Positions 3,045-40,996 of a stretch of 56,540 nucleotides of DNA are shown here, piece after piece (within the stretch, counting starts at the first letter, position 1; each line of letters starts with the position of its first letter). Location of the stretch: positions 1 through 56,540 of the forward strand of contig JAQVFY010000005.1 of NCBI GenBank assembly GCA_028696995.1. Direction: 5' to 3'. The translations under genes and the position numbers were made by a program. The DNA comes from Patescibacteria group bacterium (lineage in GTDB: Bacteria; Patescibacteriota; Patescibacteriia; Patescibacteriales; UBA12465). The notes under the pieces were generated by a model, which ran no database searches, had not been told where the DNA came from, and was given only the letters and a program-made list of their open reading frames with translations.

Positions 3045-4079
3045 ATGTCAATAATAAAAAAAATAGAAAGTGCTTGTTTAATTGGTCGTGGTGGAGCCGG
3101 TTTTCCGACTCATATTAAATTGCAAGCTGTTGCCAAGTCTAAGAGTAAAGTTAGATATTTGGTAATTAATGGAGCCGAGGGAGAACCAGGGATTTATAAA
3201 GATGGCTATATTATTAAAAATCATTTAAAAGAATTTTCTCAAGGAGTAAAAATTGCTTCTGATTTTATTAAGGCCAAAAAAATATATTTTTATCTAAATA
3301 GTAAATATTATAAATTATATAACTCGGCAATTATTAAAGAGTTTAATAAGGCTGGTCTAAAAGGTCAATTTGAAATTTTTAAAAAACCGAAAGAAGCTGG
3401 TTATATTGGTGGTGAAGAGAGCACTATTTTAAATATCATTGAAGGTCAGCACTTGGAACCACGTCTTCGACCGCCATTTCCGACCGAGAAAGGCTTGTTT
3501 GGTGAGCCAACTTTAATAAATAATATCGAAACTATCTATAATATTTATTTAGTAAGTATTAATAAATTTTCTCATCAAAGATTTTATTCTATCAATTTAG
3601 CTTCTAAAAATATTGGGGTTTATTCTTTGCCTGATGATTGGAGTATAGCTAAAGTTTTACGAGAAACTGGGAATTATCCTGATTATAAATTCTTTGTTCA
3701 GGTTGGGGGTGATGCTTCCGGTGATGTTTTAAATGAGAAACAATTAGAGCAAAAAGTTTCTGGGGCTGGATCTATTACTATATATGATTTGGAAAAACAT
3801 CAGTCATTAGAGTTGATTAAGTATTGGTTAAGTTTTTTCGTTGGTCATTCTTGCGGTCAATGTGCTCCTTGTCGAGAAGGAACTTATCGTTTGCTAGAAT
3901 TATTTGAAGATATTAGCTCTAGTTCTAAGTGTCAAAAAGATTGTTTATTAAAAGCTAATAAAGATTTTTTAGATATTTGCGAAAATCTTTCTTTGTCTTC
4001 TTTTTGTGCCTTAGGCGTTTCTGCTCCCATTGCTGTTTTAAGCTATTTTAAAAACGTTTTCCCTTTAAAAGTAAGTTAA
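3045..4079 (+). CDS. NuoF/HydB-like NADH-binding flavoprotein subunit (short form)
   Basis: GRGGAGFPTHIKLQAV, NGAEGEPGIYKD, YIGGEESTILNIIEG, RPPFPTEKGLFGEPTLINNIET, SCGQCAPCREGT...FCALG 4Fe-4S motif; lacks the N-terminal thioredoxin-like 2Fe-2S domain and C-terminal ferredoxin domain of bifurcating HydB. Confidence 0.9.
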   Translation: MSIIKKIESACLIGRGGAGFPTHIKLQAVAKSKSKVRYLVINGAEGEPGIYKDGYIIKNHLKEFSQGVKIASDFIKAKKIYFYLNSKYYKLYNSAIIKEFNKAGLKGQFEIFKKPKEAGYIGGEESTILNIIEGQHLEPRLRPPFPTEKGLFGEPTLINNIETIYNIYLVSINKFSHQRFYSINLASKNIGVYSLPDDWSIAKVLRETGNYPDYKFFVQVGGDASGDVLNEKQLEQKVSGAGSITIYDLEKHQSLELIKYWLSFFVGHSCGQCAPCREGTYRLLELFEDISSSSKCQKDCLLKANKDFLDICENLSLSSFCALGVSAPIAVLSYFKNVFPLKVS

Positions 4080-4088
4080 TATAATTTT

Positions 4089-5816
4089 ATGAATAAGAAA
4101 ATAAAAATAAAAATAGATGGAAAAGAATGTCTTGCTTATAGTGGTCAAACTATTTTAGAAATTGCCCGAGAAAATAAAATATTTATTCCATCCTTATGTT
4201 ATCATCCTGATTTGGAAATTAAAGCTAATTGTCGAGTTTGTGTAGTGGAGGTTAAAGGGTGTAATAAGCTTATGACTTCTTGTTCAGTAATTGCTGAAAA
4301 TGGTATTGAGGTTTTTACAAACTCCGAAAAAGTTCAAAAAGCTAGAAATACTAATTTAAAATTGATTTTTTCTGAACACTTGGAAAAATGCGATGGTTGT
4401 ACTTTAAAATTTGATTGCACTCTTTTAAATTTAGCTAAACGCTATAATCTTAAAATAAATCATTTTAAAGATAGAAAAGTAGATAGAAAAATATATAAAT
4501 TCGCCAATACTGTGGAAGTTGACGGTTCTCAGTGTATTGATTGCCGAAATTGTGTTGATGTTTGTTCTAATGTTCAAAAAATTAATTATTTAGAAATTAG
4601 GGGTAAGGGGGTCAAGCAAGAAATAGTTCCGACTAAAAATAAAAATATAGATTGTATTTATTGTGGTCAATGCACTCTTCATTGTCCGGTAGCCTCAGCA
4701 CAGGAAAAATATGATTGGCCAGAATTAGAAAAAATACTTGCTCAAAAAGGTAAAAAAACTTTAATAGCAATTATTGCTCCTTCTACTAGAATGGCGATTG
4801 GCGAGGAATTTGGTTTACCTTATGGTCAAAATAATAGTGGTAAAATGGTAGCCGCTCTTAAAAAATTAGGATTTGATCAAGTTATGGACGTGGTTTTTGG
4901 AGCTGACGTTACTACCTTAGTGGAGGCCGAAGAATTATTAGAAAGATTGGGGAATAAAAAGGCTAAATTACCTCTAATAACTTCTTGTTGTCCAGCCTGG
5001 GTTAAATATTTAGAATTTTATAGACCGGACTTAATACCACACTTAACAAGTTCTCGTTCTCCACAAATTCATCTAGGAGGAATTATTAAAACTTATTGGG
5101 CTCAAAAGAAAAATATTAAACCGGAAGATATTATTGTTGTTTCTATTATGCCTTGTACTGCCAAGAAATTTGAAATTTCTCGTCCTGAACTTAAGATTGG
5201 GAAATTAAAACCAATAGATAAGGTTTTAACAGTTCGAGAATTGGCCTTTATGATTAAGAAAAATAATATTGATTTCAAAAAAATAAAACCAGAGAAATCT
5301 AATGATTTGATAAATGATGGCAGTGGAGCTGGTTTAATATATGGAGCTAGTGGGGGAGTGATGGAGTCAGCTTTGCGAACAGCTCATCATGCTATTTGTG
5401 ATTCTTCTAAGGCCAAGATTTGTAATTCTCGTTTGGAATTTAAGGAAGTTCGTGGATCGAAAGGTGTTAAAGAGGCTAAATTAAATTTATCGGGTAATAA
5501 GTTAAATGTAGCAGTAGTCAATGGAATAGGTAATATTAAGGATGTTTTAGATAATTTAAGTAGATATGACTATATTGAAGTGATGGCTTGTCCGGGTGGT
5601 TGTATTGGTGGAGGGGGTCAACCGATACCAAGTTCAGTAGAGATAGTGGCTAAAAGGACGGCGGGCTTGTATCAAGGTGATAAAAAGGTTAAAATAAGGA
5701 CGGCTCATGATAATAAAGGAGCAGTTGAGGTTGTAAATTGGCTCAAGGAAAACAAGCTAGGTCACAAGGTGTTGCATACTAATTATAAAAAAAGATTAAA
5801 AGATAAGATTAATTAA
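4089..5816 (+). CDS. hydA: [FeFe] hydrogenase catalytic subunit (group A, HydA/HndD-like)
   Basis: N-terminal 2Fe-2S, HxxxC...C 4Fe-4S and two 4Fe-4S ferredoxin motifs, plus H-cluster motifs TSCCPAW, MPCTAKKFE, EVMACPGGCIGGGGQP. Confidence 0.95.
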   Translation: MNKKIKIKIDGKECLAYSGQTILEIARENKIFIPSLCYHPDLEIKANCRVCVVEVKGCNKLMTSCSVIAENGIEVFTNSEKVQKARNTNLKLIFSEHLEKCDGCTLKFDCTLLNLAKRYNLKINHFKDRKVDRKIYKFANTVEVDGSQCIDCRNCVDVCSNVQKINYLEIRGKGVKQEIVPTKNKNIDCIYCGQCTLHCPVASAQEKYDWPELEKILAQKGKKTLIAIIAPSTRMAIGEEFGLPYGQNNSGKMVAALKKLGFDQVMDVVFGADVTTLVEAEELLERLGNKKAKLPLITSCCPAWVKYLEFYRPDLIPHLTSSRSPQIHLGGIIKTYWAQKKNIKPEDIIVVSIMPCTAKKFEISRPELKIGKLKPIDKVLTVRELAFMIKKNNIDFKKIKPEKSNDLINDGSGAGLIYGASGGVMESALRTAHHAICDSSKAKICNSRLEFKEVRGSKGVKEAKLNLSGNKLNVAVVNGIGNIKDVLDNLSRYDYIEVMACPGGCIGGGGQPIPSSVEIVAKRTAGLYQGDKKVKIRTAHDNKGAVEVVNWLKENKLGHKVLHTNYKKRLKDKIN

Positions 5817-29593: not shown

Positions 29594-29686
29594 CCTTGTC
29601 ATTCCAGCGAAGGCTGGAATCCAGATTAAAAATGGCCTGGACCCCAGCCTACGCCACGTAGAACGTGGTAAACTGGGGTGACAAGG
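29594..29686. repeat. 93-bp REP/MITE-like palindromic element
   Basis: Terminal CCTTGTCATTCCAG / CTGGGGTGACAAGG inverted repeats; internal TTCCAGC-GAAG-GCTGGAA and CCACGT-AGA-ACGTGG hairpins. Confidence 0.8.
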
Positions 29687-29714
29687 GAAGAGCTAATATA
29701 ATAAAATAAACTTC

Positions 29715-30790
29715 ATGTTTAAAGCTAATAATAACAAAACCAAAAAACCCGCCTTTACGCTATAGAATTATTAGTCGTCATTGCTATAATTGGTATTTTG
29801 GCGACTTTAGCTGTAGTCGCTCTACAAAATGCCAGAAAAAATGCTAGGGATGCCAAAAGAATGGCCGATGTTAAACAAATACAAACAGCTCTAGAACTAT
29901 ATTATAACGATATTGGATCTTACCCATTAACTGGAGAAATAGACGAATCTATTGCCACAGGATCAAATACCTATATGGCTATAATCCCAACAGCACCCAC
30001 TCCAGCCGATGGTGATTGTAGTGACGAAGAGAATGAATATACCTATACCTCATCAGACGGAATAACTTATACTATAGAATTCTGTACTGGTTCAGGAGTT
30101 GGTGGATTAAACGAGGGATTAAAATTAGCTAGTCCTAGTGGTATAGTTTCTACTACTACTCCACCTGTTCCTTGGGCCTGCGGTGATAGTTTAACCGATT
30201 CTAGGGATTCTAATGTTTATACTACAGTTGAAATTGATACTCAATGTTGGATGGCGGAGAATCTAGCCTATCTTCCAGTAGTTCATAGTAATAGTGAGTT
30301 TCAAACTCAAGGAGGAAGTTCTCTTCCTGGTTATGGGGTTTATGGCTATGATGGCAGTGATGTTCCTACAGCTAAAGCTCTGGATAATTATACTACTTAC
30401 GGAGTATTATATAACTTCTTTGCTGTTGATCAAGTAAGTATTTGTCCTTCTGGTTGGAGTGTCCCTACTGATGCTCAACTTACAACCCTTACTACTTATT
30501 TAGGAGGAGAAAGTGTGGCCGGAGGAAAGATGAAAGAAACCGGAACAACTCATTGGAATTCACCTAATACTGGGGCTGATAATTCTTCTGGTTTTACGGC
30601 TTTACCAGCTGGCAACCGCGATACTAATGGTTCCATTAATGGTCTTGGCGATTACTCTATCTTTTGGTCGTCGTCAGAGTTTGGTCCTGGTGCTTCTTGG
30701 TTTCGGGGCTTGTACTGTAGTGGTGCCGAAGTTGGCCGCAGCGGTGATAGTCAGGCCTACGGTTTCTCGGTTCGTTGCCTTCAGGATTGA
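29715..30790 (+). pseudogene. Type IV pilin-like protein with C-terminal FISUMP/C-type-lectin-like domain; 1-nt deletion in the prepilin motif; candidate DGR target
   Basis: Frame 1 MFKANNNKTKKPAFTL*, then in another frame IELLVVIAIIGILATLAVVALQNARKNARDAKRMADVKQIQTALELYYNDIGSYP...; C-terminus CWMAENLAY...FWSSSE...GFSVRCLQD. Confidence 0.85.
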
Positions 30791-30873
30791 TTTATTGTAT
30801 AAAAAATTTACTAAAAATTTAAACAAAATTCATTTAGTTTTTTATAAAATACCAATTAGTTAATTGGTATTTT

Positions 30874-32361
30874 ATGTTTAAAAAATATTTTTGGCCGATT
30901 TCGGCTGTATCCTTTTTGTTGGGCTTATTTTTAGTCCATTATTTTGCGGTGACAAAATTATTATCATCTTTTTTTTATTTTGTTTTATTTTTAATTTTTT
31001 TCTTTATAACGATAAAATTTAAGAAAAATATTTTTTTAATTTTATTTTTTATATTTTTGGCAATTTGGCGGTATTTATTAATTTTTCCCGAAAATAATTT
31101 GGGTCGAATTGAAAATTATTATGGCCAAGATTTTTCCTTGATCGGCAAGGTAATATCTGAGCCGGAATTAAAAGATAATAAACAAAAAATTAAATTAAAG
31201 ATAATTTCTGGTCAAGATGATCTTGGTAATTCTTTTAAATTAGAGGGGAAGATTTTATTAACTACTCAAGCCTATCCCCTTTATGTTTCTGGTGATTTAT
31301 TGGAGCTTTCTGGGGACTGGTTGGAGCCTGGAGTTATTGAAGATTTTGATTATGGTTTATATTTAAGAAGATATGGAATTACAGCAGTTTCTTATTATCC
31401 CAGTATTAGAAAAATAAAGAGTGGTCAGGAACCCTTAGGAATAAAAAAAGTTTTTTTTATTATTAATAATTTTAGAAAAAGAATTGCTCAACAATTTGAT
31501 TTTTCCTTGAGTTTAGATTCTGCCTCTATTTTAAAGGCGATGTTATTAGGGGACAAAAGTTCTCTTAATTCTGACTTGATTGAGAAATTTTCTCGTTCTG
31601 GTCTTAGTCATATTATTGCTATTTCTGGTTTGCATATTAGCTTGCTTAGCTCGTTGTTTCTAAATTTTTTATTATTTGTCGGTTTGTCGAGAAAAAAGGC
31701 CTTTTATTTTAGTATTTTATTTCTAATATTTTATCTTATTTTAATTGGAGCTCCAGCTTCAGCTTGTCGAGCTTCTTTGATGGGTTTTTTGTCTTTTTTA
31801 GCAATTTATATGGGACGAGTAGGAAATTTGTCTAACGTTTTATTTTTTGCCGGTATTTCATTGTTATTATTCAACCCTTTATTGGTTTTTGGAGATTTGG
31901 GCTTTCAGCTTTCTTTTTTAGCTGTTTTAGGAATAATTTATCTTTATCCAATTATTAAAGAAATTTTATCTTTAAAGATTTTTAAGAAGATTAGAATCAA
32001 TGAAGCCGTCTTGGATATTTTGAGTATAACTATTTCCGTGCAGTTAATTGCTGGCCCGATTTTAATTTCTAGCTTTAAGCAATTTTCTCTAATTGCTCCG
32101 CTTAGTAATTTATTGGTAGTTTGGCTTTTGCCTTTAATTATTTCTTTGTCTATTATTGCTATTTTTTTATCTTTTGTTTTTTCTTTTTTGGGACAATTAA
32201 TTTATTTATTAGTTGATGTAATAATAAAATATATTATATTGATAAATAATATTGTTAATAAAATTCCTGGGTCTTTTATAAATATTAATAGTTGGTCAAT
32301 TTATCTTTCTATTATTTATTATTTATTATTAATTTATTTAATAAAGAACTGGCGCAAATAA
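30874..32361 (+). CDS. comEC: ComEC/Rec2-type competence membrane protein
   Basis: GDKSSLNSDLIEKFSRSGLSHIIAISGLHISLL, SACRASLMGFL; multi-TM. Confidence 0.92.
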   Translation: MFKKYFWPISAVSFLLGLFLVHYFAVTKLLSSFFYFVLFLIFFFITIKFKKNIFLILFFIFLAIWRYLLIFPENNLGRIENYYGQDFSLIGKVISEPELKDNKQKIKLKIISGQDDLGNSFKLEGKILLTTQAYPLYVSGDLLELSGDWLEPGVIEDFDYGLYLRRYGITAVSYYPSIRKIKSGQEPLGIKKVFFIINNFRKRIAQQFDFSLSLDSASILKAMLLGDKSSLNSDLIEKFSRSGLSHIIAISGLHISLLSSLFLNFLLFVGLSRKKAFYFSILFLIFYLILIGAPASACRASLMGFLSFLAIYMGRVGNLSNVLFFAGISLLLFNPLLVFGDLGFQLSFLAVLGIIYLYPIIKEILSLKIFKKIRINEAVLDILSITISVQLIAGPILISSFKQFSLIAPLSNLLVVWLLPLIISLSIIAIFLSFVFSFLGQLIYLLVDVIIKYIILINNIVNKIPGSFININSWSIYLSIIYYLLLIYLIKNWRK

Positions 32362-37270: not shown

Positions 37271-40200
37271 ATGTTTAAAGATAAAATTTTTTTTGGAAAG
37301 AAGGCTTTTACTTTAATTGAATTATTAACTGTTATTTTTGTTATTGCTTTGATTGCTTCAGTAGCCTTTTTTTCTATCTCCAATTCTCGACAAAAGGGAA
37401 ATGATATTAAGAGAATATCAGATATTACTCAAATCCAAATTGCTCTAGAGAATTATAATCGAATTGAAGGGAGATATCCTGACCAATTGATTTCCGGGCA
37501 ACCTTTGATAGGTTCTTCTAGCGGTATTATTTTTATGAATGAAGTCCCAACTAATTCTTCTTATAATGATATGGATTGTCCTTTTGACGGTTATAATTAT
37601 TCTTATAATGAAGGGCTTGAAAGTTATGATTTATCTTTTTGCTTAGAAAATCCAGTAGAAAATTATTCGACTGGTATTAAGTGTGCTACTGTTTCTGGAA
37701 TTTCTGATGGTTTGTGTAGTATGGTTTCTTTATCTTTAGTTTATTCAGCTGGATCAGGTGGCTCAATTAGCGGATCTAGTTCTCAAAGTGTAGATTATGG
37801 AGGTAGCGGTTCAGCTGTTTCAGCTGTACCTAATACTGGTTATAGTTTCGTAAAATGGAGTGATGATAGCACCGATAATCCTCGAACTGACACCAACGTT
37901 ACCGGAAATATCAGTGTTACAGCCGAATTTACTGCTAATCAATATACTCTTACTTATTCAGCTGGATCAGGTGGTTCAATTAGTGGATCTAGTCCCCAGA
38001 ATGTAAGTTACGGTACTAACGGTTCAGCTGTTTCAGCTGTACCCAATACTGGTTATAATTTTGTAAAATGGAGTGATGATAGCACTGATAATCCTCGAAC
38101 TGATACCAACGTTACTGGAAATATCAGTGTTACAGCTGAGTTTACTGCTAATCAATATACTCTTACTTATTCAGCTGGATCAGGTGGCTCAATTAGTGGA
38201 TCTAGTCCCCAAAATGTAAATCACGGCAGTAGTGGTTCAGCTGTTTCGGCTGTACCCAATACTGGTTATAGTTTTGTGAAATGGAGCGATGATAGTACCG
38301 ATAATCCTCGAACTGACACTAATGTTACTGGAAATATAAGTGTTACAGCCGAATTTGCTACTAATCAATATACCCTTACTTATTCAGCTGGATCAGGTGG
38401 CTCAATTAGTGGATCTAGTCCCCAAACTGTAGATTATGGTGATAGCGGTTCAGCTGTTTCAGCTGTACCTAATACTGGTTATAGTTTTGTAAAATGGAGT
38501 GATGATAGCACTGATAATCCTCGAACCGATACCAATGTTACTGAAAATATAAGTGTTACAGCCGAATTTACTATAAATCAATATACTCTTACTTATTCAG
38601 CTGGATCAGGTGGTTCAATTAGTGGATCTAGTCCCCAAAATGTAAGTTACGGTAGTAGTGGTTCAGCTGTTTCAGCTGTACCTAATACTGGCTATAATTT
38701 TGTAAAATGGAGCGATGATAGCACTGACAATCCTCGAACTGACACTAATGTTACTGGAAATATTAGCGTTACAGCTGAGTTTACCGCTAATCAATACACT
38801 CTTACTTATTCAGCTGGATCAGGCGGTTCAATTAGTGGATCTAGTCCTCAAACTGTAGATTATGGTAGTAGCGGTTCAGCTGTTTCAGCTGTACCCAATA
38901 CTGGTTATAGTTTTGTGAAATGGAGTGATGATAGCACTGATAATCCTCGAACTGACACTAATATTACTGGAGATGTTAGTGTTACAGCTGAGTTTACTAT
39001 AAGTCAATATACCCTTACTTATTCAGCTGGATCAGGCGGTTCAATTAGCGGATCTAGCCCTCAAACCGTAAACCATGGTAGCAATGGTTCAGTTGTTTCA
39101 GCTGTGCCCAATACTGGCTATAATTTTGTAAAATGGAGCGATGATAGCACTGACAATCCTCGAACTGACACTAATGTTACTGGAAATATTAGCGTTACAG
39201 CTGAGTTTGTTGCTGATCAATATACTCTTACTTATTCGGCTGGTCCAAATGGTTCAATTAGTGGATCTAGTCCCCAAACTGTAAATCATGGTAGTAGTGG
39301 CTCAGCTGTTTCCGCTGTACCCAATACTGGCTATAGTTTTGTAAAATGGAGCGATGATAGCACTAGCAACCCTCGAACTGATACTAATGTTACTGGAAAT
39401 ATAAGCGTTACAGCCGAATTTACTATAAATCAATATACCCTTACTTATTCAGCTGGATCAGGTGGTTCAATTAGCGGATCTAGTCCCCAAACTGTAAATC
39501 ATGGTGGCAGTGGTTCTCAGGTTACAGCTGTACCTGATTCAGATTATAAATTTAATAAATGGAGTGATAATGTGACTTCCGCTAGTCGTACTGATACTAA
39601 TGTTACGGCCAATAAAACAGTGACTGCTAGTTTTGATTATAACGGTGCTAGTTGTGCTTTTGTTTATTCCTGGGACGGAGAAAAATATTACCCTGAACAT
39701 GCTATTTCTGATTTTGCTGTGCACAATCTTTATGAGTATCCGACTTATGGAGTTTTAAATAAGTTAAAAAAGGTTGATAATTATTATCAACTTGGTATCT
39801 GGGAAAGGATTCCAGAGGTCCAATATTTAGACAACGTGGAGTTATGGAAAATTTATCATCCTCAAAATACTTTTATCGTCGCCGAACAAACGTCGGGCAA
39901 GATATATTCTATTAAAGAAAAAGTATATCCCAAATCAGCCCTTAATTCTAAGGGGACATCTTATTTATCAGAAATAGGTGCAAAAGATAATAAATATTGG
40001 GTAACTGACATGAATGATTTTGATTTTATTAATCCAATATTTTTAGATGATTTTTATTTAGAGTTTGATTTATCTAACCGTGAAGAAGAGAGTTTTAATT
40101 TAGTGGTTCGGGCTAAAGATTCTGGCTTTCTATCTTTTAATTGGAGTAATATGGTAACATTAAGCGAGGGAGGAAATAAAAAAAGATACGAAAATTTAAA

Positions 40201-40996
40201 TTTAAAAATATTTAATGCTGTAGAAAAAATCTTTGGCAAAAAAGCTTTGAAAAACGATGAGAATAAAATTATGGAAAAACTAAGTAAGGCTGGGGTTTTC
40301 AAATTTGCTTGTAAACTAGGGATGAAGTCTTTTTGTGAATTGGAGGAATTTATTAATCTGTCTGATTATGTCGCTGAAAATGCTTTTTTCCGAATTTATC
40401 AGGAGATCGATGGTGAGTATCAACTAGTTGATAATTTAATGTTTGGTAATGCTTATTTCTATCAAGAATGGGCTATTCCCTTAACTATTGAGAAGGGGAA
40501 ACCCTTAAAATTAAGATTAACCACAGCTCCCTATACTCACCAAATCGATGAAGTATATATTGGTTTATCGGAAGAAGGAGAAAATTATGTCAAAAAGATA
40601 AAGGGAGAGGTTGTAGAAACAAACCTAGACAAAAACCTGGTTGAAATTAATAGTTTATTACAGGAGCGAGATTATAATTATTTAGAGATGGATCAAAATT
40701 ATTATGCTTTATTTGATTTTTATGATGATGAAGTTGATTCTGTAGATGATGGTTACACTTATTCTATGATGCTATATGCTAATGCTTATTCAGAATCATA
40801 TTCTTTTAATGATCAAGATGATTTTTATTCAGAACAAAATCCAGAGTTATTAGAAAGCATCATAAACAATAAGGGGCTAGAGAGAAAGTTGTATTTAAGA
40901 CATTTTTACGAAATCAATAAATTAAAAACTTGTATTCCTCCAGTATATAAAATAGGAGACATATCGACCGAATTAGAAACTTGTAGCAATGATTAG
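37271..40996 (+). CDS. Large pilin-like surface protein with nine divergent InlB B-repeat-like units
   Basis: GKKAFTLIELLTVIFVIALIASVAFFSISNSRQKGNDIKRISDITQIQIALENYN pilin N-terminus; YTLTYSAGSGGSISGSSPQ...VPNTGYSFVKWSDDSTDNPRTDTNVTGNISVTAEF repeats. Confidence 0.92.
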   Translation: MFKDKIFFGKKAFTLIELLTVIFVIALIASVAFFSISNSRQKGNDIKRISDITQIQIALENYNRIEGRYPDQLISGQPLIGSSSGIIFMNEVPTNSSYNDMDCPFDGYNYSYNEGLESYDLSFCLENPVENYSTGIKCATVSGISDGLCSMVSLSLVYSAGSGGSISGSSSQSVDYGGSGSAVSAVPNTGYSFVKWSDDSTDNPRTDTNVTGNISVTAEFTANQYTLTYSAGSGGSISGSSPQNVSYGTNGSAVSAVPNTGYNFVKWSDDSTDNPRTDTNVTGNISVTAEFTANQYTLTYSAGSGGSISGSSPQNVNHGSSGSAVSAVPNTGYSFVKWSDDSTDNPRTDTNVTGNISVTAEFATNQYTLTYSAGSGGSISGSSPQTVDYGDSGSAVSAVPNTGYSFVKWSDDSTDNPRTDTNVTENISVTAEFTINQYTLTYSAGSGGSISGSSPQNVSYGSSGSAVSAVPNTGYNFVKWSDDSTDNPRTDTNVTGNISVTAEFTANQYTLTYSAGSGGSISGSSPQTVDYGSSGSAVSAVPNTGYSFVKWSDDSTDNPRTDTNITGDVSVTAEFTISQYTLTYSAGSGGSISGSSPQTVNHGSNGSVVSAVPNTGYNFVKWSDDSTDNPRTDTNVTGNISVTAEFVADQYTLTYSAGPNGSISGSSPQTVNHGSSGSAVSAVPNTGYSFVKWSDDSTSNPRTDTNVTGNISVTAEFTINQYTLTYSAGSGGSISGSSPQTVNHGGSGSQVTAVPDSDYKFNKWSDNVTSASRTDTNVTANKTVTASFDYNGASCAFVYSWDGEKYYPEHAISDFAVHNLYEYPTYGVLNKLKKVDNYYQLGIWERIPEVQYLDNVELWKIYHPQNTFIVAEQTSGKIYSIKEKVYPKSALNSKGTSYLSEIGAKDNKYWVTDMNDFDFINPIFLDDFYLEFDLSNREEESFNLVVRAKDSGFLSFNWSNMVTLSEGGNKKRYENLNLKIFNAVEKIFGKKALKNDENKIMEKLSKAGVFKFACKLGMKSFCELEEFINLSDYVAENAFFRIYQEIDGEYQLVDNLMFGNAYFYQEWAIPLTIEKGKPLKLRLTTAPYTHQIDEVYIGLSEEGENYVKKIKGEVVETNLDKNLVEINSLLQERDYNYLEMDQNYYALFDFYDDEVDSVDDGYTYSMMLYANAYSESYSFNDQDDFYSEQNPELLESIINNKGLERKLYLRHFYEINKLKTCIPPVYKIGDISTELETCSND
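37741..39640 (+). repeat. Nine tandem ~213-bp coding repeats
   Basis: tattcagctggatcaggtgg...cagccgaattt recurring at ~213-bp period, copies near identical at DNA level. Confidence 0.92.

Follow-up and report, generated by a model that had tools for sequence, protein, structure and literature searches.

The locus analysed here raises the question of whether the 3' end of a gene for a likely surface protein is rewritten by a retroelement located elsewhere in the same genome. The window, by which the whole 56,540 nt stretch analysed is meant, is part of a draft genome of a Patescibacteria group bacterium (assembly GCA_028696995.1, contig JAQVFY010000005.1), and contains a gene with a C-terminal FISUMP domain. 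The original prediction proposed a DGR-like variable region at 30661-30790, with variable codons derived from AAY template codons, and regarded the gene as a remote target. The adenine counts given for it are exact, with 11 A at 30661-30780 and 29 A at 30541-30660. An RVT_1 search of the window's own assembly, a 55-contig draft with a completeness of 96.7% and a contamination of 4.1%, returned one match, on contig C22 (E 1.8e-22), and the near-copy mismatched at A that was to be sought beside a reverse transcriptase (RT) was detected there. The RT and the template repeat (TR) are invisible in the window because both lie on C22, as expected of a remote target. We are close to certain that the 3' end of the window gene is a remote (trans) variable repeat (VR) of the DGR sited on that contig.

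On C22, a FISUMP target with its VR is followed by an Avd-like gene, the TR and the RT (Table 1). DGR reverse transcriptases are marked by (I/L/V)GxxxSQ in place of QGxxxSP, together with YxDD, and the C22 enzyme carries this signature as LPIGNLTSQ and YVDD. It is 48-58% identical to the RTs of related genomes which also have TR/VR pairs. The Avd-like protein is matched by the Pfam bAvd model (E 1.1e-9) and the NCBIfam DGR Avd model (E 2.6e-10), both matches falling under the curated cut-off, and its gene has the place and size expected for a DGR accessory gene. Four features by which a DGR is recognised are found together: the RT signature, a TR near the RT, a coding VR with mismatches concentrated at template A, and an Avd-like accessory gene.

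Table 1. Features of the target gene in the window and of the retroelement on contig C22, with the DGR targets of related genomes that begin with a prepilin motif.
Feature	Location	Strand	Details
Prepilin leader from ATG, MFKANNNKTKKPAFTL then stop	29715..29765	+	frame comparison with paralogues
Target-gene ORF as assembled	29798..30790	+	pilin-like N-terminal part and C-terminal FISUMP domain
FISUMP (Fib_succ_major, PF09603) domain	30227..30781	+	residues 144-328, E 6.5e-34
Window VR	30606..30784	+	ungapped match to TR C22:1083-1261
VR core	30661..30780	+	template A changed 25/36, non-A changed 0/84
VR 3' end	30764..30784	+	TR and VR identical through 30781 (TTCTCGGTTCGTTGCCTT)
Strong inverted repeat, 14-bp stem	30844..30875	+	terminator-like element or DGR-type hairpin, ~60 nt past VR
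VR of first FISUMP target	C22:258-436		gene truncated by contig start
Avd-like accessory gene	C22:573-908		111 aa
TR	C22:1083-1261		non-coding, A-rich, 68 nt ahead of RT start
DGR reverse transcriptase	C22:1329-2501		390 aa
Prepilin-headed DGR target	L084		Patescibacteria UBA6220
Prepilin-headed DGR target	L087		RA.bin4
Prepilin-headed DGR target	L128		Saccharibacteria
Prepilin-headed DGR target	L140		uncultured bacterium
Prepilin-headed DGR target	L145		Paceibacterota

Like the window VR, the VR on C22 aligns with the TR without gaps. Over the whole repeat, the window VR differs at 31 of 55 template A and at 5 of 124 other positions (Fisher P=7e-15), with the C22 VR differing at 27 of 55 and 4 of 124, respectively (Fisher P=7e-13). 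Mismatches facing template A make up 31/36 (86%) in the window VR, a share of at least 75% having been reported for nearly all DGRs (PMC8144416). When the 120-nt TR core was placed at all positions on both strands of the window, the next-best placement missed 44 of 84 non-A sites, the misses over all placements having a mean of 64 and a standard deviation of 4.2. With the VR taken as template instead, the changes are distributed among G, T and C, with none opposite A; the direction of copying, from TR to VR, is clear. Since the C22 VR and the window VR both fit one TR, the window gene constitutes a remote, second target. DNA resembling the TR at any length was detected in the genome only in the TR itself, the two VRs and a paralogue on contig C28.

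The variable region originally proposed is real, with an extent that proved longer, from approximately 30606-30614 to approximately 30781. Non-A differences occur at 30622, 30635, 30637, 30658 and 30782, and the four of them within the first 53 nt suggest that this part of the VR is older or less often overwritten. At 30782, the gene reads CAG and the template TAG. By analogy with studied systems, the stretch of identity at the 3' end is a likely candidate site for the initiation-of-homing sequence. The inverted repeat downstream sits farther from the VR than the hairpin does in BPP-1. The actual TR confirms that the variable codons derive from AAY: it has 22 such codons, of which 19 differ in the window VR. 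AAY codons cannot mutate into stops, and the coding space amounts to ~7.5e25 (22 AAY codons, 15 residues per NNY codon). Three A outside the AAY codons have also changed, one without effect on the protein (TCA to TCG at 30670); a synonymous change that again falls on a template A is a sign that mutation bias, and not selection alone, is at work.

The genome is rich in FISUMP and pilin paralogues, and these bear on how the pattern is to be read. The C28 paralogue (L008) is identical to the window gene at 299 of 300 positions of the pilin part (29836-30135) and at only 33 of 60 inside the VR, pointing to duplication or gene conversion not long ago, next to a VR that changes rapidly. Such signs, along with the number of paralogues, would agree with ordinary duplication followed by diversifying selection or recombination among FISUMP genes, without any retroelement. 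This account is refuted for practical purposes by the A-restricted substitutions, which track the template A in both VRs, the synonymous site included, and spare all 84 non-A positions of the core; moreover, an RT and an Avd-like gene adjoin the TR. The C28 and C37 paralogues themselves show too many non-A mismatches to the C22 TR (27/119 and 37/121, respectively) and were rejected for now as its targets. A sites are still enriched among their differences (P 0.013 and 1.4e-4), and on this sequence pattern the two genes may be old targets, or targets of another or lost template. Static FISUMP genes on contigs C29 and C53, when compared with the TR, showed no likeness to it. The poor fit of C28 and C37 leaves room for further templates, present or past, and the window VR could have been written by one that is absent from the draft assembly; given that the C22 TR already fits the window core perfectly, this is very improbable. 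It is equally improbable that C22 is a contaminant contig from another species, so that TR and VR would not share one cell. A draft metagenome assembly with an estimated 4.1% contamination leaves some room for this, but the C22 target and the window gene share 86% identity over 420 nt, the leading 104 nt being perfect, the TR fits the window VR exactly, and C22 also bears ordinary single-copy bacterial genes (lgt, a pseudouridine synthase, efp, ssb and rpsF, identified by eye).

A more serious alternative concerns the state of the window copy. The gene had been described as a pilin-FISUMP gene; the FISUMP assignment holds (TIGR02145 also matches the ORF, E 4.3e-31) and a profile search gave a weak pseudopilin match at the N-terminus, whereas the pilin N-terminus is out of frame as assembled. 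Translation from the ATG at 29715 stops after 16 residues, one base off the IELLVVIAIIG... frame which continues into the ORF, so that in this copy the leader and the N-methylation motif that define a type IV prepilin do not stand in the frame of the mature protein. In the C28 and C37 paralogues, FTLIELLVVIAIIG is unbroken and the leader is in frame (by eye). The one-base shift means that the window copy may be dead or misassembled. The gene could thus be a DGR target by origin whose copy is now non-functional, the leader shift blocking export and the VR being a recent relic. The frame break that the paralogues read through would fit such a relic, as would the four non-A changes towards the 5' end of the VR. 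Against this, the 3' 120 nt of the VR contain no non-A change relative to the template, and no stop other than the leader break interrupts the 330-aa frame, so that any loss of function would be very recent. A one-base assembly error is as likely a cause of the shift, given that near-identical paralogues exist, and we consider a non-functional copy unlikely, albeit far less so than the other alternatives. A palindromic repeat element, CATTCCAGCGAAGGCTGGAATCC, lies upstream of the target gene at 29600-29690; nine copies occur genome-wide at up to 2 mismatches, and the reversed control gave none.

Returning to a target served in trans from C22, the nature of the protein gives some indication of what its diversification would achieve. 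The protein ends in FWSSSEFGPGASWFRGLYCSGAEVGRSGDSQAYGFSVRCLQD, inside the FISUMP domain. Structure models of this domain are partly confident, and the variable residues map to its C-terminal strands. The C-terminus had been predicted to adopt a C-type-lectin-like fold, of which the FISUMP identity is upheld and the lectin fold is unconfirmed: a search of solved structures by sequence found nothing, and two structure models compared with the PDB gave no significant match (all E>0.1), though several C-type lectins and a fimbrial protein (4eps) are among the weak matches. The genome encodes type IV pilus ATPases and has an operon containing prepilin-FISUMP genes. On contig C29, a pilus ATPase gene lies together with genes for a PilC-like protein and for prepilins; two of these prepilins have FISUMP domains that show no likeness to the TR. 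These genes support a possible display on pili. A further protein of 1241 aa, encoded elsewhere in the window (37271-40996), starts like a prepilin and contains nine divergent InlB B-repeats; judging from its sequence, it is probably another surface fibre or adhesin.

By analogy with studied DGRs, TR RNA would be copied by the RT and the Avd-like protein into cDNA with random bases placed opposite A, and this cDNA would replace the VR in both the neighbouring gene on C22 and the distant one in the window, one template thereby serving two genes. The window VR may still undergo such homing today. As the 22 AAY codons fall within the FISUMP domain, every homing event would alter its presumed ligand-binding face. 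The product is likely a surface adhesin shown on type IV pilus-like fibres into which it would be incorporated, and the cell thus probably goes on altering the face with which a surface protein binds, possibly to a host. Diversification may serve the recognition of hosts or surfaces, or escape from phages. Host or neighbour cells are our best guess for the ligand, with phage escape as the alternative, because cultured Patescibacteria are episymbionts using type IV pili for host binding (PMC12206443).

Related systems have a similar organization. The relatives found through the RT, together with the genome size, also point to Patescibacteria. In our own scan, adjacent TR/VR pairs occurred at 54 of 80 named loci with related RTs. 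Among the relatives examined, targets carry FISUMP more often than any other domain, and FISUMP-targeting DGR cassettes are repeatedly found in relatives and in named Patescibacteria. The DGR targets of five relatives (Table 1) start with a prepilin N-methylation motif that scores above the Pfam cut-off, displaying the same prepilin-FISUMP-VR layout as the window gene. A remote target was sought in one related genome (G006) and none was found, its VR being adjacent only. Searches of viral contigs and phage records returned only distant FISUMP relatives, leaving a phage origin of the target gene unsupported. Two related DGRs (L028/L153 and L029/L147) have a less usual layout, with the TR/VR pair located downstream of the RT and on the strand opposite to it.

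When compared to BPP-1-type DGRs (Bordetella phage; surveyed in PMC8144416), the present system shares the RT signature, Avd-like gene, TR, 3'-end VR and A-restricted mismatches; it differs in that one of its two targets is on a distant contig and has a pilin-like N-terminus, homing there being presumed. As in the CPR DGRs of Paul et al. (2017), as cited in PMC8144416 and PMC10907252, a cellular DGR occurs in a small CPR-type genome along with several VR-like genes. CPR clade 2 targets typically have no recognisable transmembrane or other conserved domain (PMC8144416), and the commonest CPR target architecture cited is a C-lectin fused to an AAA ATPase (PMC10907252), in contrast to the FISUMP domain with a pilin-like head found here. 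A VR which matches a distant TR at non-A sites has also been reported for Thiohalocapsa PB-PSB1 (PMC10907252) and Trichodesmium (PMC8867640), although the phylum and the targets differ. A link between pilin-like structures and DUF1566 targets has been mentioned as well (PMC6642488). CPR bacteria with DGRs, targets at remote loci and targets resembling C-type lectins have each been described before (PMC8144416, PMC10907252, PMC8867640). A FISUMP target with a pilin-like head that a Patescibacterium DGR serves in trans appears to be new, no published description of one having been found in a search outside the main CPR paper (Paul et al., 2017).

In fragmented genomes, remote DGR targets escape large surveys, such targets having been described as undetectable in the survey of PMC8144416, which also reports CPR targets as mostly lacking recognisable anchoring domains. 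The window target is recognisable, its FISUMP domain being carried by a pilin-like stalk. In Saccharibacteria, one of the type IV pili contributes to host binding (PMC12206443, whose abstract and outline make no mention of DGRs); the present genome likewise belongs to Patescibacteria with type IV pilus genes, to which the window gene would be linked. Since such pili help host binding in cultured members, hypermutation is here tied to a concrete and testable candidate for host recognition. A broader proposal, which we hold tentatively and judge slightly less probable than its opposite, is that in Patescibacteria one DGR template diversifies several pilus-borne FISUMP adhesins at separate loci, constantly renewing the set of host-recognition pili of an episymbiont with a minimal genome. 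A different type of DGR occurs in a genome of the same genus (G001), at L196 (G001:C5:281500-289500), with YADD and LPLGNLTSQ in its RT (3135-4151, minus strand) and a 206-aa target without a Pfam match (5030-5650, minus strand), whose TR/VR pair shows 22 A and 0 non-A mismatches.
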